The notes beneath the pieces were generated by a model. That model was not told where the DNA came from, ran no database searches, and saw nothing but the letters and a program-made list of their open reading frames with translations. 43,324 nucleotides of DNA, taken from an uncultured Flavobacteriales bacterium (GTDB lineage: Bacteria; Bacteroidota; Bacteroidia; Flavobacteriales_E; Vicingaceae). The position numbers were made by a program, and so were the translations under genes. Numbering within the stretch: the first letter of the stretch is position 1; each line of letters opens with the position of its first letter. The DNA is taken from NCBI GenBank assembly GCA_913056345.1, contig CAJXMH010000025.1, forward strand, positions 1 to 43,324, written 5' to 3'. Shown in pieces: positions 2 through 13,500 of the stretch.

Positions 2-1636
2 TTTAAAGAAGCGCAAAATGGTGTGCCTGATACCTTGTACGATACGGTTTCGGCTTTCCTGAACCGCGAAGGAGGAGTTATTCTCTTAGGCGTAGATGAC
101 GATGGAAATGTATTGGGCTTAAACGGCCAAAACCTCATGCAGCTGAAACAAAATATAGTTACTGCATTGAACAATCCTGATGTGATTAACCCTCCCTTTG
201 CTTTGGCGGTGAATGAAGTAGTTCATGGCAATGACACCTTGCTTTATATCCGCGTGCCTGTTAGCTCCTTTATTCACAAGCATGGCCAGGTAATTTACGA
301 CCGTGAAAACGACAGTGATTTCAGGATTACAGATGAAGCTCGAACAGCCGAAATGTATGCCCGAAAACGGAATGTGTTTTCGGAAAACCAAATCTTCCCT
401 AATCTGCGCATCGCAGATTTAGATGCAACACTTTTTGACAAGGTAAAGTCGAGAATTGCCTTGGTAAACACCAACCATCCTTGGCTTACAGAGGGTTATT
501 CCAATGAACGTATTTTAAGAGATGCGCGCTTCTTGCGCAGAGATTTTACCACAGGCGAAGAAGGCTTAACCTTAGCGGCAGCTTTGGTATTTGGCACCGA
601 TGAAGTAATTGGCAATCTGTTGCCAGCCTATCGCATTGATATTTTGGTGCGCAGAGAAAACAAAGACCGATGGGATGACAGGCTGTTGCTGAAAACCAAT
701 TTAATCGATTCGTACTTGCAAGCTTTGCAGTTCATAAAAAGCAAATGGCCAGAGAAGTTTTGGCAAGATGCGGATGGTAACCGCAAAGATTTGCGCGAGC
801 TGATTTTCCGTGAGTTAGTGGCTAATATCATCATTCACCGCGAATACAATAGCGCCACACCAACTCAAGTTATCATTTATGAAGATCGAGTTGAGGCTAC
901 TAATCCAAACCGTAGAAGATTTACGGGTCCTTTAGACCTAGAAACTTTTGAGGCAGAACCAAAGAATCCAAACATTCGGGCATTCTTTAATATCCTCACT
1001 TGGGCAGATGAAATAGGCTCGGGTGTCCGAAATATGAACAAGTTTGTAGCGAGCTACACAGGTGGTGCACATCCGATATTTATTGAAGATGAACCTTTCA
1101 AAAGCACAGTGCCAATGTTGCTTTACAGGGTTGGAGAAAAATCAGCATTATTCATTCACCTTGCCCAGCTAACAGAACAACAAATAGGTGCTGACAAAAC
1201 GATGGTACTTCAAGAACTCCCCTTAGAATTAAGTCTCAAAAACATTGATGATTTAGATGAGCTTGCCATACTGTTGGTAGGTAGTTGGGCTGAAAAAAGT
1301 GGGGAGTTAGCAGGCGTAAGATTCTTGACCAACAAGGAGTTAACTACTGCTGAGCTTAAAAAAGTGGGGAGTTGGCCAGAAAAAAGTGGGGAGCTACTAA
1401 AGAAGCGGGCAAGAGTCTTGCTGAGCACCCTGATGCTTACACTTACTCCTATTTCACTTGATGAATTAGCTAATGTATTAGGCTACCGAAGCAAAGAGCG
1501 TTATCGTGACGACTATGTAAAGCCATTAAAAGACAATCGTTTGATTGAATATACCTTGGAGCAGGCAAATGACCCTAACCAACAATATGTAATCACAAAC
1601 CGTGGGAAACTATTTTTAGGGGGGAGCTCCATATGA
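2..1636 (+). CDS. AlbA_2 (Schlafen-like) / HATPase_c_4 ATP-binding transcriptional regulator, 5' truncated by window
   Basis: The reading frame is open from base 2 with no start, and the codons before the GTG at 23 fit the family (FKEAQNGVPDTLYDTVSAF), so the gene begins outside the window. The N-terminal ~100 residues are an AlbA_2 domain (AFLNREGG, LLGVDDDGNVLGL). The middle has a HATPase_c_4-like region (RELVANIIIHREY, then a degenerate NP motif and EIGSGVRNM). The C-terminal ~80 residues look like a winged helix (LDELANVLGYRSKERYRDDY). Family members are usually annotated as putative transcriptional regulators or ATP-binding proteins; the physiological role is mostly unknown. The linker between ATPase-like and winged-helix parts holds a repeated segment (GSWAEKSGEL, GSWPEKSGEL), described separately. 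The stop TGA overlaps an ATG, but only a 23-codon frame follows. The SLOG gene starts 83 nt downstream on the same strand. Domain calls are fairly sure; function is inference. Confidence 0.8.
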   Translation, partial: FKEAQNGVPDTLYDTVSAFLNREGGVILLGVDDDGNVLGLNGQNLMQLKQNIVTALNNPDVINPPFALAVNEVVHGNDTLLYIRVPVSSFIHKHGQVIYDRENDSDFRITDEARTAEMYARKRNVFSENQIFPNLRIADLDATLFDKVKSRIALVNTNHPWLTEGYSNERILRDARFLRRDFTTGEEGLTLAAALVFGTDEVIGNLLPAYRIDILVRRENKDRWDDRLLLKTNLIDSYLQALQFIKSKWPEKFWQDADGNRKDLRELIFRELVANIIIHREYNSATPTQVIIYEDRVEATNPNRRRFTGPLDLETFEAEPKNPNIRAFFNILTWADEIGSGVRNMNKFVASYTGGAHPIFIEDEPFKSTVPMLLYRVGEKSALFIHLAQLTEQQIGADKTMVLQELPLELSLKNIDDLDELAILLVGSWAEKSGELAGVRFLTNKELTTAELKKVGSWPEKSGELLKKRARVLLSTLMLTLTPISLDELANVLGYRSKERYRDDYVKPLKDNRLIEYTLEQANDPNQQYVITNRGKLFLGGSSI

Positions 1637-1650
1637 AAAAGTGGGGAGTT
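1293..1650 (+). repeat. Dispersed 15-16 nt repeat AAAAAAGTGGGGAGTT, four copies in several reading frames
   Basis: Near-identical copies lie at 1293-1308, 1358-1373, 1380-1395 (ends in CT) and 1636-1650. The first and third are read as EKSGEL, the second is read in another frame as KKVGSW, and the fourth begins at the last base of the AlbA_2 gene's stop codon. A further partial copy (GGGGAGCT) lies at 1621-1628. Conservation at DNA level across frames is seen directly; its origin is unknown. Confidence 0.7.
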
Positions 1651-1719
1651 TTTCAGTATATGGCTATGAAAAGCACCGAGAAGTGGGTACTTCAAAAAAA
1701 ATAGGTTGGTAGTTCGTTT

Positions 1720-2166
1720 ATGGAATACTTCGGAAACAAGGACATATTAAACCATCACAAGACAGGCTTTTTAAGCTCAAGAAAGTGCCCTGCTGATGTT
1801 GTTCTTAAAAGCTACGAGTGGGCTAAAAAGCAGAGATCAGAAGGAAATTGTATTGTTTGTGGAAATCACTCACAAATAGAAAAAGACGTTTTTGAGATAC
1901 TCTTAAAAGGCAACCAACCACTTGTTTTGGTATTGCCTAGAGGATTAAAATCACGTTGGCCAAAAGAATGGCTTGAAGCAATAGACAAGAATCGACTGTT
2001 AATTATTTCACCATTTTCAAAAGACGTAAAGCGAGTTACGCGCGAAACAGCAATTAAAAAGAATAAAACGATCATTGAACTGTCAACAGAAATTATAGTG
2101 GGCTATTCATCTGAGGGGGGACAATTAGCTGACCTGTTGAAAAACAAGACATACAGACATGTTTAA
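1720..2166 (+). CDS. DprA-like SLOG-domain protein (short, stand-alone)
   Basis: This 148-aa protein reads as a single Rossmann-like SLOG/DprA-type domain. It has GFLSSRKCPADVV near the N-terminus, the GNHSQIEKDVFEILLKG segment typical of short DprA-like proteins, LVLVLPRGL, then LLIISPF and, near the C-terminus, VGYSSEGGQ. Full DprA (about 300-370 aa) loads RecA on incoming DNA; this one lacks the extra SAM and winged-helix parts. SLOG domains bind nucleotides or nucleotide-derived ligands, so a sensor or DNA-binding role is possible but not shown. It lies 83 nt after the AlbA_2 gene on the same strand, and the pair may be co-expressed. An attC-like repeat follows 127 nt after the stop. I am fairly confident of the fold and not of the function. 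Confidence 0.72.
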   Translation: MEYFGNKDILNHHKTGFLSSRKCPADVVLKSYEWAKKQRSEGNCIVCGNHSQIEKDVFEILLKGNQPLVLVLPRGLKSRWPKEWLEAIDKNRLLIISPFSKDVKRVTRETAIKKNKTIIELSTEIIVGYSSEGGQLADLLKNKTYRHV

Positions 2167-2292
2167 TCCTTCGCACATAGCCACACACATTGCCAAAGCC
2201 GCGCAAATCAACGCTCAATCCAAAGCTTTGTCAAAGAGTGTGTCTATCCCAACGCAAGGCCAGAAAAACGAAAAGAAAAATAAAAAAACAGG

Positions 2293-2352
2293 GTACAACA
2301 AAACCTATACGCAATGCCCTACGGGACACTGCGCATAGCCAAACCGTTGTGC
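2293..2352 (+). repeat. attC-like imperfect inverted repeat (site a)
   Basis: A 60-nt dyad. Outer 7-mers GTACAAC (2293-2299) and GTTGTGC (2346-2352) are complementary at 6 of 7 positions and resemble the attC cores RYYYAAC and GTTRRRY with one mismatch each. Inner arms CTATACGCA (2305-2313) and TGCGCATAG (2330-2338) pair at 8 of 9 positions, and a CCC/GGG tip (2317-2319, 2323-2325) caps the structure. Size and layout match short attC sites, and the next gene starts only 18 nt beyond. No integrase is visible, so this could be another kind of intergenic palindrome. Confidence 0.5.
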
Positions 2353-2370
2353 ACAAGCGTCCGAACAACC

Positions 2371-2784
2371 ATGAATTTAACTGATAAACAAATTTCAGAG
2401 ATTGCGGAACTGCTAGACTGTGGTATGACATGCTTTTATCATATCTCAACGGGAGAGATTGAATCACACCCTGATCCTAACGATGGTTACTTTGACCCCG
2501 AACCATGGCAAGACTTAATTGACAAAATTGAAAACGATTGGGGTAATTACGAGAAATTTGAGAAAATGGACTCCAATGAGTCTTACAGGGTGATGGAAAG
2601 ATTTGCCAACACGTTAACAGATACAAAATTTAAATACAAAGTAATGGAGAGTATTTCAAGACGAAAACCTTTCCAGAATTTTAAAAGATTAATTGATTCC
2701 TCTGACTATCGTCAAAAGTGGTTTGACTTTAAGAATCAATCTTACATTGAATACGTGAAAGAACAAATTGAATTAAAAAAATAA
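2371..2784 (+). CDS. UPF0158 family protein
   Basis: This 137-aa acidic protein matches the UPF0158 family along its whole length: LTDKQISEIAELLDCGM, then a short strand region ending in HISTGEIESHPD, EPWQDLIDKIE, FEKMDSNESYRVMERF, the basic segment RRKPFQNFK, and DYRQKWFDFKNQ near the C-terminus. The family is widespread and uncharacterised, and no enzyme motif is apparent. The frame is open from 2314, but that start would lie inside the attC-like dyad. The ATG at 2371 gives the family N-terminus and sits 18 nt after that dyad, a layout usual for cassette-borne genes. No promoter of its own was found. The gene is flanked on both sides by attC-like repeats, so it looks like a single-gene cassette. 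Family assignment is confident; function is unknown. Confidence 0.82.
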   Translation: MNLTDKQISEIAELLDCGMTCFYHISTGEIESHPDPNDGYFDPEPWQDLIDKIENDWGNYEKFEKMDSNESYRVMERFANTLTDTKFKYKVMESISRRKPFQNFKRLIDSSDYRQKWFDFKNQSYIEYVKEQIELKK

Positions 2785-2793
2785 AAAGCCTGT

Positions 2794-2932
2794 GCACAAC
2801 AAAAACTATAAAATACCTGCCCGACCGGCAGGCGGGTAGCCGCAGTCAACGTTTGGCTAAGGTTTGATTACCTTTAATGCTAAATTTAACCGACACTGCT
2901 TGCGGCTACATTTCATAGTCGGAGCGTTAACC
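2794..2932 (+). repeat. Large attC-like inverted repeat with nested palindromes (site b)
   Basis: The dyad spans 139 nt, near the upper end of attC lengths. The outer cores are GCACAAC (2794-2800) and GTTAACC (2926-2932). Arms ACTATAAAATA (from 2805) and its imperfect partner ending ATAGT at 2919 match at 9 of 11 positions. GTAGCCGCAG (2836-2845) pairs with TTGCGGCTAC (2900-2909). Two small hairpins are nested inside: CCTGCC/GGCAGG (2816-2821, 2827-2832) and AAGGT/ACCTT (2859-2863, 2870-2874). The cores fit the attC consensus only partly. Confidence 0.42.
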
Positions 2933-2979
2933 CTCACAACAAAAGTCATCGCTAAGTCGAATCGTACGGATTGTTTTTA

Positions 2980-2987
2980 TATATTTG
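2980..2987 (+). promoter_or_regulatory. Bacteroidota -7 box TATATTTG before the antitoxin gene
   Basis: TATATTTG fits the Bacteroidota -7 consensus TAnnTTTG exactly and lies 16-19 nt before the candidate starts at 3004 and 3007. No clear TTTG -33 element is seen at the usual distance. It suggests the toxin-antitoxin pair carries its own promoter, as is common for such pairs inside cassettes. Confidence 0.5.
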
Positions 2988-3003
2988 TACGTATAAATAA
3001 TTA

Positions 3004-3255
3004 ATGATGGATACAAAACTCACTTTAAAGCTTAATCAAAGGATTATTGAAAAAGCTAAAGAATACGCATCCAACAAAAAAATGAGCTTGTCTCGAATTG
3101 TGGAGGCTTATTTGCAATCTTTGACTTCCGAAAATCACATCTCTGAATTTGAGATTTCACCTTTCGTGAAAAGCATTTCAACAGGAACTGAGATCCCAGC
3201 TGATTTGGATTACAAAAAAGAGTATTCTGATTATTTAATTGAGAAATATAAATGA
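3004..3255 (+). CDS. DUF6364-type antitoxin (ribbon-helix-helix-like) of a type II toxin-antitoxin pair
   Basis: This is an 82-83 aa protein. The N-terminal half (MDTKLTLKLNQRIIEKAKEY followed by MSLSRIVEAYL) has the strand-helix-helix pattern of ribbon-helix-helix antitoxins in the DUF6364 family. The C-terminal half (ISPFVKSISTGTEIPADLDY) would wrap the toxin. Two ATGs stand in tandem at 3004 and 3007; the second gives the family N-terminus MDTKLTLKL. The TGA stop overlaps the ATG of the PIN toxin by four bases, so the two are translationally coupled. Antitoxins of this kind neutralise the partner RNase and repress the shared promoter; here a TATATTTG box lies just upstream. The pair sits between attC-like repeats, where toxin-antitoxin genes commonly stabilise cassette arrays. 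Family call is confident by pattern and context. Confidence 0.82.
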   Translation: MMDTKLTLKLNQRIIEKAKEYASNKKMSLSRIVEAYLQSLTSENHISEFEISPFVKSISTGTEIPADLDYKKEYSDYLIEKYK

Positions 3256-3671
3256 GCAAAAGGATTTTTATCGATACAAATGTATTGTTAGACCTTTTAG
3301 GAGAACGAAAACCATTTTATGAACCGATTGCGAAGATTGCAACCTTAGCGGAAAAAGAAAAGCTGATTATGGTTGTTTCACCCATTTCGTTTGCGACAGT
3401 AAACTATTTTATATCAAAATTTGAGAATGGAAAAATTGCAAGGGAAAAACTAAGAAAATTTAAGATAATCTGTGAAATATGTTCGCTAGATGAACAAACG
3501 ATTGAAAAAGGACTCAATTCTTCGATAAAGGACTTTGAGGACGCCTTACAATATTTTAGTGCGACAGAATCGGAATGTGAAATGATAATAACAAGAAATG
3601 GAAAGGACTTTAAAAAATCATTATTACCTGTTATGACAGCAGATGAGTTTTTAAAATCTCTGAATAAATAA
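3252..3671 (+). CDS. PIN-domain (PIN_3) ribonuclease toxin, VapC-like
   Basis: This 139-aa protein is a single PIN domain. It has the N-terminal IFIDTNVLLDLL motif with Asp8 and Asn10, a second acidic cluster DFEDAL (Asp94, Glu96, Asp97), and the C-terminal ITRNGKDF with Asp119. These acidic residues are the usual metal-binding set of PIN RNases, and no key position appears lost. VapC-type toxins cleave tRNA or rRNA and are held in check by the cognate antitoxin. The start ATG overlaps the antitoxin stop (ATGA). The length fits the family. A weak dyad and then about 400 nt without a convincing gene follow. The target RNA cannot be predicted from sequence. Confidence 0.88.
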   Translation: MSKRIFIDTNVLLDLLGERKPFYEPIAKIATLAEKEKLIMVVSPISFATVNYFISKFENGKIAREKLRKFKIICEICSLDEQTIEKGLNSSIKDFEDALQYFSATESECEMIITRNGKDFKKSLLPVMTADEFLKSLNK

Positions 3672-4092
3672 TAACTACACCCAACAATGGCAGCTGATGC
3701 ATGCTTGCGCTGAAGCTTTAGCATAGGCGCCACAACCCTCCTCTTCATAAAAAAGCAACTTAATTAAGCGCTTTTAAGAGGACCTATTTTTTTCTTACCA
3801 GCTATGTTCTAGCTCATTTTCAGTTGCCCATTTCCAAGTATAATCAGTCTCAGTTGCAAAATTTGTTGAAGCAAGCATTTTACTGCTTCTTGGGCTACTA
3901 TTTCCCGATGCTTTTTAGTGAATTTTAGGTATTTCTTGTGGCCTATACTGAGCTTACCGAAGTGCGGTTTGACCAAGATGCCTGTATATCTCTGTCGAGA
4001 GACCTTCTCTCATCTCAATTACAGTTATGCTGTTCATTTCAAAGAACTTATTCTTATTTTGTATCCTTGAACAGCGCGGGACACACTGCAGC
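3672..4092. other. Intergenic stretch with no intact gene; weak dyad, possible gene remnant
   Basis: About 420 nt between the PIN toxin and attC-like site d. A weak dyad lies at 3689-3731 (GGC/GCC, TGCT/AGCA, GCT/AGC with mismatched spacers), but its outer bases do not form inverted attC-like cores. The + frame starting at 3938 runs through the attC-like site and has low-complexity composition. On the minus strand, short open segments in different frames (around 4010-3950 and 3950-3800) suggest an eroded coding region, but no family was recognised. Confidence 0.4.
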
Positions 4093-4151
4093 TTGTAACA
4101 ATCGCTGTAAAACATACCCTTTGGTAGGCGTTTCAGAGCGGAACGTTAGCA
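4093..4151 (+). repeat. attC-like imperfect inverted repeat (site d)
   Basis: A 59-nt dyad and the best-formed of the series. Outer cores are TTGTAAC (4093-4099) and GTTAGCA (4145-4151). Long arms CGCTGTAAAAC (4103-4113) and GTTTCAGAGCG (4130-4140) pair at 9 of 11 positions. The tip is TACC (4115-4118) / GGTA (4123-4126) around CTTT. The flank AACAATCGCT and the end AACGTTAGCA resemble the ends of classical integron attC sites. The next gene starts 19 nt downstream. Confidence 0.52.
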
Positions 4152-4170
4152 ACGATCATAAACCAACAAT

Positions 4171-5283
4171 ATGACAGACATGAATTGCAAGACAATATTT
4201 GAAGCAAATAAATTGCTTTTAGTACTTCTGTTATTTCAAGTCTCCGCTTGTACAGGACAAGTCAAAGAAAAGTCAATTAGTGATAATACAAAAAATGAAG
4301 CAAGCAAGGAACTTCTTGCTAAAAAGCAAAACACGATATTCCCTCAAATTCACACCAACTTAAATGGAATGGTAAGACAATTTGTAAGGACATTCCATCA
4401 AGACAGTAAAGGGAACTATTGGTTTGGAACAAATGGAGATGGGATTATATGCTATGATGGGCAAACACTTGAAAAAATCACCATTGCAGATGTAAGTCCA
4501 CGTATAAGGGTTTTAGAGATTAAAGAAGATCAAGCAGGTAATGTATGGTTTGGAACTTCTGACGGACTCATAAAATACGATGGTACAGAATTTAGAACAT
4601 TTTCAAAAAAAGAAGGATTACCTGGTGAGAATGAAGAAATTTGGGGCTTAACAATTGACAAAAACGGACTTATTTGGGTGGGGTCGATTGGAGGAGTTAG
4701 TCATTTTGACGGAGAGAAGTTTATACCTTTTTCCTTGCCAGACTCTATGGTCGAAAATCCAGAGCACAAGCTATCTGATAAATTGGTTAAAAAAATTATA
4801 GAAGATAAAAGGGGAACCATTTGGCTTGTTACCGATGGAAATGGAATTTTCAAATACAATAAGGGTGAATTTGCTCATTTAACAACTAAAAATGGGCTTA
4901 CCGACAACAACACTGCTGACATCTTGGAGGATAGTCAAGGAAATATTTGGATTGGAACTTATTATGGTGGTGCCAGTAAATTTGATGGAAAAACCTTTAC
5001 CAACTTTACTAAAGATGGCATCATCGAAGGTAAAGAGACCTATAATTTTTATGAGGATAGTAAAGGGAATATATGGTTTACAGCAGAAGGTTATGGTGTT
5101 TACCGCTACGATGGAGTTAATTTCACCCACTACACAACTAAAAACGGATTAACTACAAATGTTGTCCAGAGTATTTTTGAAGATAATAAAGGACAACTTT
5201 GGTTTGGGACATGGCAGGGCTTATGCATTTTTGATGGTGAAAAATTTGTGAATGCAAACGAAATAGAGACTTGGACCAACTAA
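4171..5283 (+). CDS. Lipoprotein with two-component-regulator-type propeller repeats (Reg_prop)
   Basis: The N-terminus has a hydrophobic segment (LLLVLLLFQVSAC) ending in a lipobox-like Ser-Ala-Cys, so the protein is probably an exported lipoprotein. The rest consists of about seven to eight repeats of roughly 40 residues with the signature D-x-x-G-x-(I/V)-W-(F/I)-G-T followed by Y/F-DG (for example DQAGNVWFGTSDGLIKYDG). These are Reg_prop blades, normally found in the periplasmic sensor of hybrid two-component systems such as BT-type polysaccharide regulators. Here there is no histidine kinase, Y_Y_Y domain or HTH, only the propeller. The start at 4171 lies 19 nt after attC-like site d; a second ATG at 4180 is possible. 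A stand-alone propeller might bind a ligand or partner at the membrane, but this is inference. Confidence 0.8.
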   Translation: MTDMNCKTIFEANKLLLVLLLFQVSACTGQVKEKSISDNTKNEASKELLAKKQNTIFPQIHTNLNGMVRQFVRTFHQDSKGNYWFGTNGDGIICYDGQTLEKITIADVSPRIRVLEIKEDQAGNVWFGTSDGLIKYDGTEFRTFSKKEGLPGENEEIWGLTIDKNGLIWVGSIGGVSHFDGEKFIPFSLPDSMVENPEHKLSDKLVKKIIEDKRGTIWLVTDGNGIFKYNKGEFAHLTTKNGLTDNNTADILEDSQGNIWIGTYYGGASKFDGKTFTNFTKDGIIEGKETYNFYEDSKGNIWFTAEGYGVYRYDGVNFTHYTTKNGLTTNVVQSIFEDNKGQLWFGTWQGLCIFDGEKFVNANEIETWTN

Positions 5284-5430
5284 AAACAACTGTTGCCTAC
5301 AAAGAACTGTGCTAAAATCCAAGTAGAATATCCTTTATTTTAAATTGAAACATTTTAACCCTCAGCTATAAAATCTGCACCACGCTTCTGAGGATAGAAA
5401 ATGGGCCTGCTACTTAATTCCTTCCAATTC

Positions 5431-6102
5431 CTATTTCAAGAAAAAAGCAAGACTTACCCACAATTGGTGATCAGGAATGGGGCTATTCAAGCCATCTAAT
5501 CGGTAATCTAAGCCAATTTCGCCCTTGTTACCTTGGTTAAACAGAAAGCCATAAGCAGCTGTGGCTCTAGCTTCTAGCTGTTCCTTTTGATTGCGCGTCT
5601 TGGCTAGTGCTTCTACTCCTGTAATCAAATAGCTTTCTTCCGCATCTAAACGTAATCCACTAAGTGGGAATTGAGCGCCTAAGCGGTAACGCAGGCGATA
5701 CTCCCAATCCTTATTCCCTCTTAAACTTTGATCGAGTCGTAAACGCTGTGCATACTTGAATTGAAAGCTTTCATTTACCCATGCCACCTGCTGCATGAAA
5801 CGCCACATATTACTTAAGGTAGAACTACGGTGCATCAAACCGGCGGCTACTACTCTTTTGGGCGATAACCTTCTTTGCAGCATGCTTTGCAAGTCAAGTC
5901 GGCGCATTTCTGCTTTTCCTTGCGAAACTTCAAAGTTCTCTGATTGGATCAAAGAGATCCTCGATTGCACCTTCGCTTTCAAGCTCCACTTCTCCCCTAG
6001 TTTTTGAGAAGCGTTAAAATCTAAAATTGTCCCAGACTGAGATGGATCTTGAGCCACGGAAAATAAAGGAAGTAAAAAGAGAATCAGCAGTACTTGCCTC
6101 AT
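5431..6102 (-). CDS. DUF2490 family outer-membrane protein
   Basis: This 223-aa protein begins with a signal peptide (MRQVLLILFLLPLFSVAQ). The mature part has the alternating, aromatic-capped strands of a small beta-barrel and ends in a Phe-rich strand (LWVSLAFFLK), typical of outer-membrane barrels. Landmarks fit the DUF2490 family of Bacteroidota: an early SLKAKVQSRIS strand, a central region with RLRLDQSL and EYRLRYRLG, and the later EESYLI strand. The function of the family is unknown. The ATG overlaps the TAA of the upstream gene by one base (TAATG), so the two are co-translated. The family call is moderately confident. Confidence 0.72.
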   Translation of the reverse strand: MRQVLLILFLLPLFSVAQDPSQSGTILDFNASQKLGEKWSLKAKVQSRISLIQSENFEVSQGKAEMRRLDLQSMLQRRLSPKRVVAAGLMHRSSTLSNMWRFMQQVAWVNESFQFKYAQRLRLDQSLRGNKDWEYRLRYRLGAQFPLSGLRLDAEESYLITGVEALAKTRNQKEQLEARATAAYGFLFNQGNKGEIGLDYRLDGLNSPIPDHQLWVSLAFFLK

Positions 6103-6746: not shown

Positions 6747-7559
6747 ATGTTAGCGCAACTGCCCAAGATCAAATTTGCTGAATCTCAAAATTTCTTTTTA
6801 TTAGCCGGCCCTTGTGCCATTGAAGGCGAAGAAATGGCTTTTGAAATAGCCGAACGGATCTATCAAATTACCTCCCGTTTAGAAATTCCTTGGATCTTTA
6901 AAGGCTCTTACCGCAAGGCAAACCGCTCACGCTTAGATTCCTTCACTGGTATTGGAGATGAAAAAGCCCTCAAGATCTTACAAGCGGTTGGCGAGAAATA
7001 CCAGGTTCCTGTGGTGACTGACATTCACGCTGCTGAAGAAGCTATGGTAGCCGCCAATTATGTTGATGTACTGCAGATTCCTGCATTTCTAAGTCGGCAA
7101 ACCGACCTTTTGGTGGCTGCTGCTAATACCGGCAAATTTGTAAACATCAAAAAAGGGCAATTCCTCGCACCTGAAGCCATGCAGTTTGCACTGAATAAAG
7201 TAAAGGAGTCAGGCAACGATAACGTTTGGCTTACCGATCGAGGAACCATGTATGGCTATCACGACATGGTGGTTGACTTTCGAGGTATCCCGACCATGAA
7301 GGCTTTTGGTGCTCCTGTGATCATGGACATTACCCATTCTCTGCAGCAACCAAACCAAAGCTCAGGTGTCACCGGTGGTCAGCCTGAAATGATCGAAACC
7401 ATTGGCAAGGCAGCTATTGCCGCAGGAGCAGATGGTATTTTCATTGAAACACATCACGCACCGGAAACAGCCAAATCAGATGGGGCCAATATGCTACAGC
7501 TTGATCGTTTAGAAGCTTTGTTAGAAAAATTGGTCCGAGTGCGTCGCGCAGTAACTTAA
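6747..7559 (+). CDS. kdsA: 3-deoxy-8-phosphooctulonate synthase (KDO-8-phosphate synthase)
   Basis: This cytosolic enzyme condenses phosphoenolpyruvate with arabinose-5-phosphate to KDO-8-phosphate, the first step toward the KDO of lipopolysaccharide. The family signatures are all present: LAGPCAIEG near the N-terminus, IFKGSYRKANRSR, VVTDIHA, the LQIPAFLSRQTDLL segment, NIKKGQFLAPEAM, LTDRGTMYGY, VIMDITHS, and the C-terminal GADGIFIETH. With the ATG at 6747 the protein has 270 aa, the usual length; the frame is open to a TTG at 6711, but that would add a non-homologous leader and lies upstream of the -7 box. The stop overlaps the stop of the convergent OmpA gene (TTAA). Very confident. Confidence 0.97.
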   Translation: MLAQLPKIKFAESQNFFLLAGPCAIEGEEMAFEIAERIYQITSRLEIPWIFKGSYRKANRSRLDSFTGIGDEKALKILQAVGEKYQVPVVTDIHAAEEAMVAANYVDVLQIPAFLSRQTDLLVAAANTGKFVNIKKGQFLAPEAMQFALNKVKESGNDNVWLTDRGTMYGYHDMVVDFRGIPTMKAFGAPVIMDITHSLQQPNQSSGVTGGQPEMIETIGKAAIAAGADGIFIETHHAPETAKSDGANMLQLDRLEALLEKLVRVRRAVT

Positions 7560-9556
7560 TCATCATCTTCGATCAAGTTGATCTTTCCGATCACCTTAAA
7601 TTCTGTTCTTCGATTTTTGGCCCTTCCTTCAGGATTATCTGTACCATCAGGATTGGTGTTGGGCGCAACCGGCTGGCTTTCACCGTAGCCTTTCGCTTTT
7701 AGTCGGTCACGGTCTACCCCTTTCTTTTTCAAATAATTCACCACACTTTGAGCTCGTTTTTGAGATAAATTCTGATTAAAAGCGGCTGAGCCTACGCTAT
7801 CTGTGTGGGAACCAATTTCCACGATAATCTCCGGATTTTCCTGCATGATGATCAACAAAGTGGTATCTAAAGCTTCATAAGCTTCTTCCATCATTTTACT
7901 GTCAGCAAAATCGTAGTAAATGTTCTCTACTTCGTAAACTCGATCTGTTATAGGTTTGAGTGAAAGCTTTAGCTCCATCCCCTCTCGATCACGCATGGCT
8001 GTTTTCTCTAGCAGACGGGATTGATTAAGGTATTCATCAGCCCTTGTCTTGATCACATAATCTTTGTCTTTTTCAAGGAGCAAGTCAAAGTTTCCTGAAG
8101 CATCAGGTTTAATGCTACGGTTAAAGTACAATTCCCCATCCGCATCCTTGGTGTAAAGATTAAGCTTTGCTTCCCGCACTTGCTGATCAGGCGCCTCTTC
8201 ATTTTTTAGGCTAACAGAAAGCTTTAGCAGGTCTACCGCAGCTTGATTGAAATAGAAAAGATCATCGCAGCAAGCCTGCAAGGCCACCTTTTTAGGGTGT
8301 GGACGGTTGGAGGCAAAAAGTCCTTCTTGTCCATTGGGGTGCACCACATAATAAACTTCATCTTGCGGCCCATTGATGCTTGCACCAATATTTAGCGGTT
8401 CGGTCCACCTGCTTCTTTGTCCGCTACTTTTAAACACATCAAACAAACCAAAGCCTGGATGACCGTCAGAGCTAAAAAACAATTCTCCACTCAATGGATG
8501 AATAAAAGGTGTGAGCTCATCTCCAACACTGTTGATCTTAGAACCACAATTTCTAGGAGTTTTGAATCGTTGCTTGTCAGGATCATAGCGGGTATACCAA
8601 ATGTCTTTGCCGCCCTTCCCTTCTTTGCGATCACTCACAAAATAAATGGTTTCCCTGCCCTTTTCATCAACTCCAATAGCGGGCTGTGTTTCCAAGGCCG
8701 AAGTATTGATCAATTCAGGTAGTTTCGTTGGCTTTTCCCAAACCTTTTGCTTTTCGCTGAAGTAGAGGTCACAGTCCTTTTCCCCTTTATAATCAAGAGC
8801 ACAAGCAGTAAAGTAAAAGCGATTCTTTTCAGGATTAAAAGCACCGTTTACCACTTCCATGCCGGACTCAAACGGAATATCATCCCAAGGCTTAACTATT
8901 GATGCGGAATCTGACTTGTAATCCACTTGATAAAATTTTCTGATGGGTAGGCCTTCTTCTGTACCCACTTCAACAGTTTGAGGTGCTCCAATTTCCAAGC
9001 GGTTGTAGGCAATTTTTCCATCACCAATAAAGATTGGTGCACCTTCCACCCGATTTGAGTTAGCGACTGACAAAGGCTTAACGCCCATAAAGTTGCTTGA
9101 GTCACTTAGTTCTTGGCAGCCTTCTGCTTGGTATTTAGCTAGTCGTCGGTATTTTCGATCATCCTTCTCACCCCTGTAGGCTTTCCGAAAGGCTTCATAA
9201 ACAGGAATGGCTTGTTTGCAACTGTCGATGGCTTTCAAACTTTCAGCATAATAAAAGGCAGCAAGCGGAAAACGTTTGGACTCGCGTTCTGACAAGTTTC
9301 GATATAAAGGTAAAGCAGCTTGATAAGCTCCTGTATTGCGGTAACATTCAGCTAAAGCATAGCTTATTCTAACATCTTGGGGTTTTCTTTCTAAATAGGC
9401 TTCATAATAAATGCTTGCAGTAGCATAATCCTGCATTTCTTCTGCAGATCTCGCTAACTCTTTTAATTGACCATTGCTGTAATCCATTTCTTGAGCTAAA
9501 AGCACAGGAGCTAAAGAAAGGAGTGCGACCAAAAAACTTGTCTTAATAGCGTTCAC
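7556..9556 (-). CDS. TPR-PD40-OmpA family envelope protein, partner of PorP/SprF
   Basis: This 666-aa protein has a signal peptide (MNAIKTSFLVALLSLAPVLLAQ). TPR-like helices follow (YYEAYLERKPQDVRISYALAECY), then a central block of PD40/WD40-like repeats (IYFVSDRKEGKGGKDIWYTR, LFFSSDGHPGFGLFDVF) up to about residue 410. A carboxypeptidase-regulatory-like segment comes next. The C-terminus is an OmpA peptidoglycan-binding domain (IIVEIGSHTDSVG, NQNLSQKRAQSVV, KGYGESQP, NRRTEFKV). Such proteins anchor outer-membrane assemblies to peptidoglycan and in Bacteroidota are usually encoded with PorP/SprF proteins and T9SS type-B cargo, as here. The start overlaps the upstream PorP gene by 14 nt, and the stop overlaps the kdsA stop. 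Compared with the paralogue at 32001-33581, it keeps the OmpA domain. Confidence 0.9.
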   Translation of the reverse strand: MNAIKTSFLVALLSLAPVLLAQEMDYSNGQLKELARSAEEMQDYATASIYYEAYLERKPQDVRISYALAECYRNTGAYQAALPLYRNLSERESKRFPLAAFYYAESLKAIDSCKQAIPVYEAFRKAYRGEKDDRKYRRLAKYQAEGCQELSDSSNFMGVKPLSVANSNRVEGAPIFIGDGKIAYNRLEIGAPQTVEVGTEEGLPIRKFYQVDYKSDSASIVKPWDDIPFESGMEVVNGAFNPEKNRFYFTACALDYKGEKDCDLYFSEKQKVWEKPTKLPELINTSALETQPAIGVDEKGRETIYFVSDRKEGKGGKDIWYTRYDPDKQRFKTPRNCGSKINSVGDELTPFIHPLSGELFFSSDGHPGFGLFDVFKSSGQRSRWTEPLNIGASINGPQDEVYYVVHPNGQEGLFASNRPHPKKVALQACCDDLFYFNQAAVDLLKLSVSLKNEEAPDQQVREAKLNLYTKDADGELYFNRSIKPDASGNFDLLLEKDKDYVIKTRADEYLNQSRLLEKTAMRDREGMELKLSLKPITDRVYEVENIYYDFADSKMMEEAYEALDTTLLIIMQENPEIIVEIGSHTDSVGSAAFNQNLSQKRAQSVVNYLKKKGVDRDRLKAKGYGESQPVAPNTNPDGTDNPEGRAKNRRTEFKVIGKINLIEDDD

Positions 9557-10598: not shown

Positions 10599-13500
10599 TT
10601 GACTTTTAAGATTCCATACCACAAATCTATCGGGCTTACCTTAAGTCTTTTAGGCTTACTCCTTTTTGTAAATAAGGGTTTCGCCCAACTGAGTGCAGAC
10701 TTTACAGTCAACCAAAATAGTGGATGCGTGGCTTTGCCCAATGTGCAATTTACTGATCAATCAAGTGGTAACATAACTTCTTGGAGTTGGCAATTTGGCA
10801 ACGGCAATACCTCTAGCTTGCAAAACCCGACAAGTTCATATCCAACAGTTGGCAGTTACACTGTTACGCTAACGGTGAGCAACGGCACCACGAGTTCAAC
10901 TGTTACCAAAACAAATTTTATTAATGTTTATGCCAATCCTGTAGCTGATTTTAACTTCAATCCTGTAGGAGGTTGTTCTCCCTTAGCGGTTAGATTTAAC
11001 AATACCTCAAATGCACCTGCAGGTGTTGCTTCCTACAGTTGGGATTTTGGTGATGGCAGTCCGGCAGGAAGCGGAGCCAATCCTCAGCATACCTATGCGG
11101 TTGCCGGCAACTTTTCGCCTTCATTAGAAATAGTAGATGTAAATGGCTGCCGTGACACAGAAGTTAAAAGTTCTGGAATTAGCGTGACCAATTCACCGCA
11201 GGCAGACTTTTCTGCAGCTAACCCTGTAGCCTGCGCAGCGCCGCATACGGTTAACTTTAGCAACAATTCTCAGGGCAGTAATTTGAGTTATTTATGGCGT
11301 TTCGGTGACGGGAACACTTCCACTCAGATCAATCCTTCTCATACCTATTCCAATTTTGGGACTTACACCGTTACCCTAGAAGTTTCTGATCCAAATTGCA
11401 GGGATACCTTGATTCAACAAAACTATGTAAGAATTGAAGCCACCAATGCTGATTTTGATTTTGCCAAAGCGGTTTATTGTTTAGAAGACACCATCTTTTT
11501 TAATAACCAAAGTACAGGAGCGAATTTATTTAACTGGGATTTTGGTGATGGAACAAGCTCAACACAATTTGAACCTAGCAAACAATACAGCAGTCCGGGC
11601 ACCTACCCTGTGCGTTTACAAATCTTCGCCGGTGGTAATTGCACTGACGAACTTGTGGATACGGTAGAGGTCTTCGAATTGGTAGCGGACTTTATAACCG
11701 ATAGTACTTTTAATTGCCGCAACGATCTTGCTCGCTTTTATGCGAGTGCGAATTCACCAGCAGAGTTTATTTGGAGTCTAGGCACTAATACTGAACCTGA
11801 CAGTTTAAATGGAGATACCGTGCAGCAAATTCAAGGTGATTTTGGCATTTTTTCAGACACCTTGATCGCAGTCAATGACAGTGGATGCGTCGATACAGTG
11901 GTTAAAGTTGATAACCGTGAGGTAGATTTCTTATTGGCTAGGATTGCTGCCAATAGCGTGATTGTAGATGACGATACTATGAAAGGATGCCTTCCCCTGA
12001 ATTATGATTTTGCAGACAGCAGTCTTGGTACTTATCCGATTATCAAACGGGATTGGGATTTCGACCTAAATCGAACAAGTAATCAACTTAGTGCGAGTAA
12101 CATTGACTTTCCCAACCGACAAGCATACCGAACTACCCTCTTAATTGAAAACTCCAAAGGTTGCACCGCTTTTGATGAAGTTTATGTGGTTGGTGGAGAA
12201 AAACAGATTCCTGCTTTTACCTTTTTCCCTGATTCCATTTGTCCAGGTGATTCACTAACTATTCTAGATCAATCAACTGTTCAATCGTTTATAGATACTT
12301 TCAAATACATTTTCCTTTCATCTAATAATCGCTTGCAAACAATAGTGGATACGCCTGGGATTAAAACATCCTTTCCGCCAGAAACAGGCTTGTACAACAT
12401 AAATCTTCAAATTACGGATAATGGCTGTGACACCCTACTAGAAACCACTGATAGTGTTTACCTGAAAGGTCCTGTGGCTGTTCCTACATTTTTCTCCAGT
12501 TGTAGCACAAGAACCATGATCAACTTTCGAGCAAATGCTTCAGGTTTTACACGCTTTTATTGGGATTTTGGAGATGGGAGCCCGCTAGATTCGGTAAACC
12601 TGAATCCCTCACATCAATATGGCTCGGGCAGTACTTTTCGGGTAGAATTGATCTTATTGAACGATACCAACGGTTGCGATACTGCTAAATTTGAATTGTT
12701 TGTACCCGTGGGTACGCTACCGCCATTGCAAATATCACCTGACACCCTAAACTTTTGCTTGGGTTCTACCGTGAGAATTTACAATGCTGATTCAAGCACT
12801 TACGTTCGAAACGATTGGACCTTTGATGGTCAGTCGATTGGCAACCTCAGAAGTTTTGTGCGGACGTTTAATGCACGCGGTACTTACCCAATTCTGTTGC
12901 AAACGGAAGATGTGTTGGGCTGCACTTATCAGGTCAGGGATACCATCTACATCAGTCAACCCGAGGCTAAAATTGGTAGCGAAATTCTGCAAAGCTGTGC
13001 CCCTATGGTGGTTGACTTTATTGATTCAAGCACAACGGATACTACCATTCAGTCTTGGCTTTGGACTTTTGGAAATGGTGACAGCTCATTTGTGGCAAGA
13101 GACACAGTGCAGTACCCTTTGAATGCCAATCCTGATGTATTCTTGAAGATCGAGAATGTTTTTGGCTGTAAAGACTCCGTATTGATTCCTAAATTTTTAG
13201 AATCACGGCAATTGCAGGTTGACTTTCGGTTTGGGAACGTCAACATTTGTGCGGGAGATAGCATCACTTTTAGGAACACCTCTTCTGGTTTAAATCCTAC
13301 TTACCGTTGGTTTTTTAATGACGATACCCTAAGCTCTCAAGCCAATTTCCTAAACCGCACTTTTAGTGAAGCAGGAATTTACACCGTGCAATTAGAGGCA
13401 ACAGATGAAAATGGCTGTATCTTAAAAGATAGCCTAGCTAATTTGGTCAGGGTTGATTCAGTTCCTGTGGCCGACTTTATAGCAGACTCTGTATTTGCGC

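Follow-up and report, generated by a model that had tools for sequence, protein, structure and literature searches.

An integrase-less, partly worn cassette array in a Flavobacteriales genome probably belongs to an integron-like system of the Bacteroidia

Near the left end of contig C25 of an uncultured Flavobacteriales bacterium (CAJXMH010000025.1; the whole contig of 43,324 bp was analysed and is called the window; genome 2.92 Mb in 66 contigs, 99.7% complete), a run of genes is interrupted by imperfect inverted repeats that resemble the attC sites of integrons, and the question is whether these genes are recombination cassettes and which enzyme would have moved them. A sequence-only reading of the locus had proposed a CALIN (cluster of attC sites lacking an integron integrase) or a related lineage-specific cassette system with deviating cores. 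This interpretation is supported in its second half, as the sites belong to a family that adjoins a different tyrosine recombinase, here termed BRec; a classical CALIN is improbable, no IntI over the profile cut-off having been found in 46 genomes of the bacterium's family. The window is therefore read as an integrase-less, partly worn array of a Bacteroidia-wide integron-like system, with a probability of about 0.88; that it is a cassette array of some site-specific recombination system is close to certain. New cassettes probably no longer enter the array where it stands, given the weakness of two of the three sites and the failure to find a BRec.

Generic scans for hairpin energy and for AAC...GTT dyads were too noisy to decide whether the repeats are real: by foldability, the best 70-nt windows over the dyads fell among the top 0.6% to 9% for the window, and site 1 was the highest-scoring AAC...GTT dyad in the window (40.9), a score exceeded by 2 of 10 one-strand shuffles. 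Covariance models were built from related sites. Model R1 was derived from an alignment (A4) of 41 sites from 17 recombinase-linked loci plus locus L114 of the family; because A4 includes a near copy of site 1 from genome G434 (same family, other genus), a second model, R2, was rebuilt from an alignment (A6) of 33 sites with the family genomes G434, G435 and G399 left out. Two MAFFT alignments in which short and long sites were mixed (A1, A2) misplaced parts of the sites and were not used for models. In A4, a 17-pair stem had 83.6% of its cells paired versus 53.2% after shuffling, with a covariation score of 0.622 versus 0.156. Run with filters off over 1500-6000, R1 returned the three dyads as its three best full-length matches, and both models placed them at exactly the coordinates claimed from sequence alone. 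The sites, and the cassettes that they delimit, are as follows.

2293-2352, plus strand: attC-like site 1, short form, 60 nt; R1 39.2 bits (E 7e-9), R2 38.0 bits (E 2e-8); near copy in G434
2346-2800, plus strand: UPF0158 gene cassette; begins with the G of site 1's GTT and runs through the AAC of site 2; 10-nt terminal inverted repeat
2794-2932, plus strand: attC-like site 2, long form, weak; R1 15.6 bits (E 0.008), R2 11.9 bits; 10-nt end match of the left core
2926-3690, plus strand: toxin-antitoxin (TA) cassette, approximate, beginning at the GTT of site 2; right end not recognised
4093-4151, plus strand: attC-like site 3, short form, probably decayed; R1 18.0 bits (E 0.002), R2 16.8 bits, filters off

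Site 1 is beyond chance by itself, and sites 2 and 3 are marginal when taken alone and look worn. With R2, a partial minus-strand match of 13.2 bits ranked between site 3 and site 2; with default filters, R1 run over the whole window at E<=10 reported 2293-2352 and 2794-2932 only. The remainder of the window (6001-43324, R2, filters off) gave no match at E<=1. Members of the site family measure about 60-195 nt, with 50 of the 61 collected sites at 129-135 nt. The integron core consensus RYYYAAC/GTTRRRY does not describe them, as the cores read GTTR with free further bases; the right-hand cores in the window are GTTGTGC, GTTAACC and GTTAGCA. A search of 295 class genomes with the exact pattern ACAACANNNNCTATA...CGTTGTG recovered only two genomes, the bacterium's own included, and was abandoned as too rigid.

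An integron cassette brings its own half-cores, so that its start is complementary to its end, and the two cores of one array site need not match. This end rule was examined at four variable bases for consecutive sites in 23 recombinase loci and in the Christiangramia lutea array L039. Exact agreement was obtained for 44 of 55 consecutive pairs, with 6 further pairs agreeing at three bases, 3 at two and 2 at one; 1000 permutations of the partners gave a mean of 2.1 exact pairs and a maximum of 8, and the two cores within one and the same site matched fully in only 4 of 76 sites. Among the 44 exact pairs, agreement extended inward, with 98% matching at positions 8-9, 43% at position 10 and 75-82% at positions 12-14. 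Position 11 was A at the start in 44/44 and matched in only 5%, position 4 was R in 43/44, and position 5 was T or C in 29/44.

Hairpin attC-like sites with complementary cores at cassette start and end were thus found in relatives and, within the window, for one cassette. At 2346-2355 the UPF0158 cassette starts with GTTGTGCACA, which reappears in reverse complement as its end, TGTGCACAAC, at 2791-2800; this is the sole such place in the window, which lends support to site 2. Reading GTTGTGCACAAGC from 2346 against GTTGTGCACAGGC read back from 2800, the two ends show an A/G mismatch at position 11 and a match at positions 12-13, as in relatives. Judged by these ends, the UPF0158 gene is a cassette. 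The alternative that no recombination is involved and that the dyads, lying between genes without connection to each other, are terminators or dispersed palindromes draws on their position after genes and on the failure of the generic fold scans to set them apart from background; however, terminators predict neither a cassette start complementary to its end (44/55) nor a fixed place after BRec, the end rule persisted in the other arrays examined, and this alternative is most improbable.

BRec is linked to these sites by position and by strand. The genome of C. lutea carries 13 sites in 12.4 kb in array L039 and, on another contig, a 387-aa tyrosine recombinase followed by five sites on its strand; likewise, a recombinase is followed by sites in Gillisia hiemivivida (four sites) and Lunatibacter salilacus (one). 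A profile was made from an alignment of four proteins (A3, in which L132 is one of the rows), and matches counted at E<=1e-60 were present in 159 of 315 sampled class genomes, mostly one per genome, and in 9 of 11 sampled family genomes. The recombinases of L127, L131 and L134 were kept out of the profile as shorter or other-type enzymes; that of L134 is presumably IS91-linked. Linkage was assessed in 20 loci picked by flank length, rank or kinship together with L125, L126 and L129, making 23. Sites scoring at least 31 numbered 63 downstream on the recombinase strand, 2 downstream on the opposite strand and 2 + 1 upstream, in 187 kb of downstream and 160 kb of upstream sequence, versus 3 sites in one dinucleotide shuffle of each locus, and at least one site was present in 20 of the 23 loci. 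The association count was made without L128, L132, L133 and L135; at a score of 32, one or two sites were seen in L127, L128, L131, L134 and L135 and none in L130 (where the recombinase is broken), L132 and L133. Furthermore, among the matches listed, recombinases starting less than 3 kb from a contig start were, by eye, at least 40 on the minus strand and at least 6 on the plus strand, an excess that is expected if assemblies break in a repetitive array downstream of BRec. On viral contigs the BRec profile matched 80 distant integrases (32-43%).

The start of the first cassette behind BRec was predicted from the first left-hand core half (R''), and in 16 of 20 loci the exact 7-mer was found 30-181 bp past the point where the BRec match ends; L126 showed one mismatch at 33 bp, and in L171, L175 and L180 the 7-mer occurred only farther off. 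By eye, a TATAAAC(A/G)A-like stretch directly precedes the GTT in about nine of 17 junctions, and on sequence it is a candidate for the attachment site attI. In G434 the attI-like sequence located behind BRec (L183) recurs, by eye, before an array gene on a different contig of that genome (L105, about 11470-11520, minus strand).

The strand on which the sites would fold can be read from their mispairs. IntI acts on the folded bottom strand of attC, as is also given in the abstract of PMC6393395. The scanner with which sites were collected scores bottom-strand pairs, so that a strand preference is built in, and a count free of this was obtained from 70 sites detected by Watson-Crick pairs only: top-strand A.C, which is G.T on the bottom strand, occurred 105 times versus 25 for top-strand G.T. 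The stem of site 1 has three non-Watson-Crick pairs, all of them A.C on the top and hence G.T on the bottom strand.

From these observations a course of events can be proposed. In complete arrays BRec would be encoded at the head, pointing the same way as the array, and would recombine two partners: a double-stranded attI-like site just past the BRec gene, and the attC-like hairpin into which the bottom strand of a cassette folds. The cut would fall between the G and the TT of the right-hand core. Each cassette would carry its own core halves at both ends, with R' at the start complementary to R'' at the end, and the window locus would be a short array of single-gene or TA-pair cassettes left without its recombinase. 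BRec is very probably the enzyme of the system, and a use of the bottom strand in folded form, with a cut at G^TT, is likely, though with less assurance.

Could the window instead be a classical CALIN, with cassettes brought in by an ordinary IntI integron that has since disappeared? The geometry, the G^TT cores and the bottom-strand bias are those of attC, R1 weakly matches sites on the IntI-bearing loci L078 and L082 (20-26 bits), and IntI, taken as TIGR02249 over its cut-off of 265, does occur elsewhere in the phylum (105 of 395 genomes); among the 107 carriers listed, however, only G037 belongs to the window's class. The bacterium's own genome has no integron integrase over the cut-off, its best stretch reaching 79.5 bits, and none was found in any of the 46 family genomes, nor in eight further genomes, namely C. 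lutea and seven other carriers of the UPF0158 gene. In addition, the best site of the window has a near twin beside BRec, the cores deviate from GTTRRRY as described above, and among the near relatives searched no IntI-headed array with the same sites was found. These arrays are not IntI integrons, and a lost IntI integron is an improbable source of the one in the window. In L070 (contig C126 of G263), around 2940-3094, a UPF0158 homologue was seen by eye near a GTTAGGC core; a different contig of this genome carries a true IntI, and the UPF0158 family may be a cassette in both systems.

BRec itself is distinct from IntI. Its Pfam domains are Phage_integrase and SAM-like domains, and many BRec proteins have an N-terminal extension of about 90 aa. 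TIGR02249 scored four array-type BRec proteins at 191-212 bits, below its cut-off, and aligned with them in two pieces that omit about positions 180-237; in proteins with a motif match, the spacing from KDR to HxLRH was 58-59 aa in 13 BRec and 100 aa in 4 IntI. By both the two-piece alignment and the motif spacing, the IntI-specific additional domain within the catalytic domain is not present in BRec. Messier and Roy (2001) reportedly found this additional domain to be necessary for activity. An I2-like domain is suggested in PMC4792948 to have permitted the recognition of single-stranded sites. A 73-protein tree, midpoint-rooted and with several long-branched rows, placed 21 IntI in one clade (100/99) with the BRec rows outside it on several branches, one of which, containing the family's G434 and G398, groups with IntI (93/81). 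The shorter recombinases of L121/L134, L184 and L123/L127 branch next to IntI (98/91 among themselves, 97/94 with IntI) and may bear on the origin of IntI.

The array genes lie near the left end of the window, all on the plus strand, and their identities as read from sequence alone (SLOG, UPF0158, antitoxin and PIN toxin, propeller lipoprotein) were matched by a Pfam search. The stated distances of the UPF0158 and propeller start codons from a dyad, 18 and 19 nt, were also reproduced.

23-1636, plus strand: AlbA_2/ATPase-type protein, adjoining the array; the frame begins 22 bases from the contig break
1720-2166, plus strand: SLOG/DprA-like gene (PF02481), upstream of site 1, possible cassette
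2371-2784, plus strand: UPF0158-family cassette gene (PF03682)
3004-3255, plus strand: DUF6364 antitoxin-like gene (PF19891, 96 bits)
3252-3671, plus strand: PIN-domain toxin-like gene (PF13470); the G434 protein is 94% identical
4171-5283, plus strand: Reg_prop two-component-regulator-propeller lipoprotein gene (PF07494), possible cassette after site 3

Beyond the propeller gene follow a DUF2490 gene and then the gene of a DAHP_synth_1 protein; on inspection, a degenerate possible cassette end, GTTGCCTAC, lies at 5292-5300, just past the propeller gene. No frame of at least 150 aa in the window matched BRec at E<=1e-8, an Rfam search of the window gave no matches, and a plasmid search with the window's TA DNA likewise gave none.

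Comparison with G434 places the same genes in other settings. On its contig C38, BRec is followed 2.6 kb downstream by a site (L183:10511-10570) that is identical to window site 1 at 55 of 60 bases; on the right the two diverge directly past GTTG, on the left within R'', so that a point of divergence lies at a dyad, a sign that the sequence-only reading had named as one to look for. Contig C44 of G434 carries the window's TA pair (86% DNA identity over 2965-3684) between different flanks; close by lies a long-form homologue of site 1 that has a right core other than GTT. Contig C43 has another PIN pair and then a UPF0158 gene (74% DNA identity). A strong site immediately precedes the pair and two others lie 2-3 kb farther on, but in a site scan neither the gap from the PIN gene to the UPF0158 gene nor the stretch right behind the latter gave a strong site. 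About 300 bp between these two genes (L114 9440-9750) look like a group II intron end. Because the C43 and C44 arrangements differ from that of the window, the same genes occur in other orders, and with further rearranged homologues in L022 and L039 the gene order is not conserved among relatives. UPF0158 homologues were found in the L039 array, where the segment obeys the end rule over 9 nt, and beside sites or model matches in L114, L022, L040 and L029. Patchy gene content could also arise in hotspot islands swapped by homologous recombination, with the dyads as bystanders, and the SLOG gene is indeed present at E<=1e-10 only in the bacterium's own genome among the 46 family genomes; but the near copy of site 1 departs at the core edges and the flanks of the common TA pair differ, and this explanation has very little probability.

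L109 contains two nearly identical 68-nt plus-strand sites (5963-6030 and 8187-8254), 2.2 kb apart, around minus-strand genes that include a PIN pair. A model site on the minus strand lies between them at 7046-7244, so that orientation is non-uniform there.

In the bacterium's own genome nine model matches were found at E<=1, all within 4 kb of a contig end, and further weaker matches are present on these stretches. Six of the eight matches outside the window have a 9-11-nt end match. A scatter of the same dyads over the genome had been named as a sign against cassettes: sites do occur on other contigs, but because of their position at contig ends and the end rule in 6/8 they are arrays and not scattered palindromes. 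Across the family, 45 of 46 genomes have model matches at E<=0.01, with up to 54 in one genome.

Modules can also be moved by host recombinases. The pdif modules of Acinetobacter plasmids are moved by Xer between dif sites of about 28 bp in alternating orientation. In keeping with a similar origin of the window array, its modules carry TA pairs, and the own genome has a XerC-like gene (L003; TIGR02224 307 bits, below the cut-off of 335) and a second related recombinase (L001); these two cluster with L122 in the protein tree, apart from BRec. The sites described here, compared by length and orientation without a search aimed at dif, are however long hairpins of 60-195 nt with covariation, co-oriented in BRec loci, and the arrays are tied to BRec by position and strand, which makes movement by Xer very unlikely.

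Several observations weigh against a BRec-fed array. Two of five covariation measures were no better than shuffles (double-change pairs 16 versus 14.9; further pair types 37 versus 38.8), and the scanner that collected the sites has its strand preference built in, the Watson-Crick-only count alone being free of this. Three of the 23 BRec loci lack a site and L177 has only one weak site, while L132, although a row of the profile, is without sites in its 10-kb contig. Within the window, the segment from site 2 to site 3 breaks the end rule (four leading bases only), site 3 at 4093-4151 is without end-match support, no GTTGTAC matching the left core of site 1 was found upstream as a start of the preceding cassette, and no attI was recognised. 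Elsewhere, UPF0158 segments between model matches in L022 and L040 fail the end rule (1 and 0 leading bases), and of five more neighbour pairs in the own genome one matches over 10 nt, one over 6 and three over 0-3. Finally, the own assembly holds no BRec match at E<=1e-60; its BRec was either lost or lies in an unassembled array.

The proposed BRec system shares with IntI integrons small, mostly co-oriented cassettes, AAC...GTT hairpin sites, a putative G^TT border, a bottom-strand bias and a candidate attI-like site by the recombinase gene. Dissimilar from them, BRec lacks the IntI insertion, lies outside the IntI clade and in many cases has an N-terminal extension, and it points with its array, whereas in L078 the best sites precede IntI on the other strand. 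Like a CALIN, the window has sites and a cassette while the assembly lacks an integrase gene; its sites, however, belong to the BRec-linked family, making it the counterpart of a CALIN in another system. The family model NF040815 (recomb_XerA_Arch, 'site-specific tyrosine recombinase/integron integrase', cut-off 220) covers the BRec of L125 (226 bits) and L126 (222), with L129 (217) and L132 (207) under the cut-off, and its name is silent on attC arrays. We lean towards the view that the Bacteroidia have a second, IntI-independent integron lineage in about half of the sampled genomes, whose recombinase would act on folded single-stranded sites without the I2 insertion considered essential in IntI, so that hairpin-cassette recombination either predates the insertion or arose twice.

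In the IntegronFinder 2.0 survey (PMC9024848), the Bacteroidetes, previously credited with In0 elements only, gain a single complete integron, that of Salinibacter. Among open PMC papers, searched by titles and abstract starts, with subscription papers and preprints outside this scope, none turned up that deals with a recombinase other than IntI at attC arrays of Bacteroidota. If the proposed system is real, a large class of bacteria from gut, soil and sea maintains a traffic in cassettes that IntI-based finders can be expected to miss, and many Bacteroidota would exchange single genes in a way that may escape integron finders. It would also permit a direct test of the requirement for the IntI additional domain, with BRec as the natural test case, and would explain why many draft contigs end beside BRec. 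A candidate enzyme for homology-free gene capture in Riemerella would be available as well: in Riemerella anatipestifer, aph(3')-IVb was acquired without homology, a 140-bp 3' flank with an attC-like fold being co-integrated at one locus by a mechanism described as not yet elucidated (PMC13148043), and the words recombinase and integrase are absent from the main text of that paper. This capture fits the BRec system and may be a case of it.

Two plasmid loci were noted in addition. A complete plasmid of Chryseobacterium sp. SNU WT5 (L293, 7974-17011) carries a BRec-like gene, annotated 'site-specific tyrosine recombinase/integron integrase'. Downstream of it, on its strand, the model finds four sites of 55-93 bits, and a group II intron maturase gene is also present. 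On an Acinetobacter indicus plasmid (L292, NZ_CP041297.1 18379-27068), tet(X3) is preceded at 190 bp by a recombinase gene; the protein has about 220 aa and shares 46% identity with the L125 BRec over 59% of it. The sequence after tet(X3) looks by eye like a half-site, at only 14.2 bits (E 0.49), and that tet(X) may once have been a cassette is a lead.

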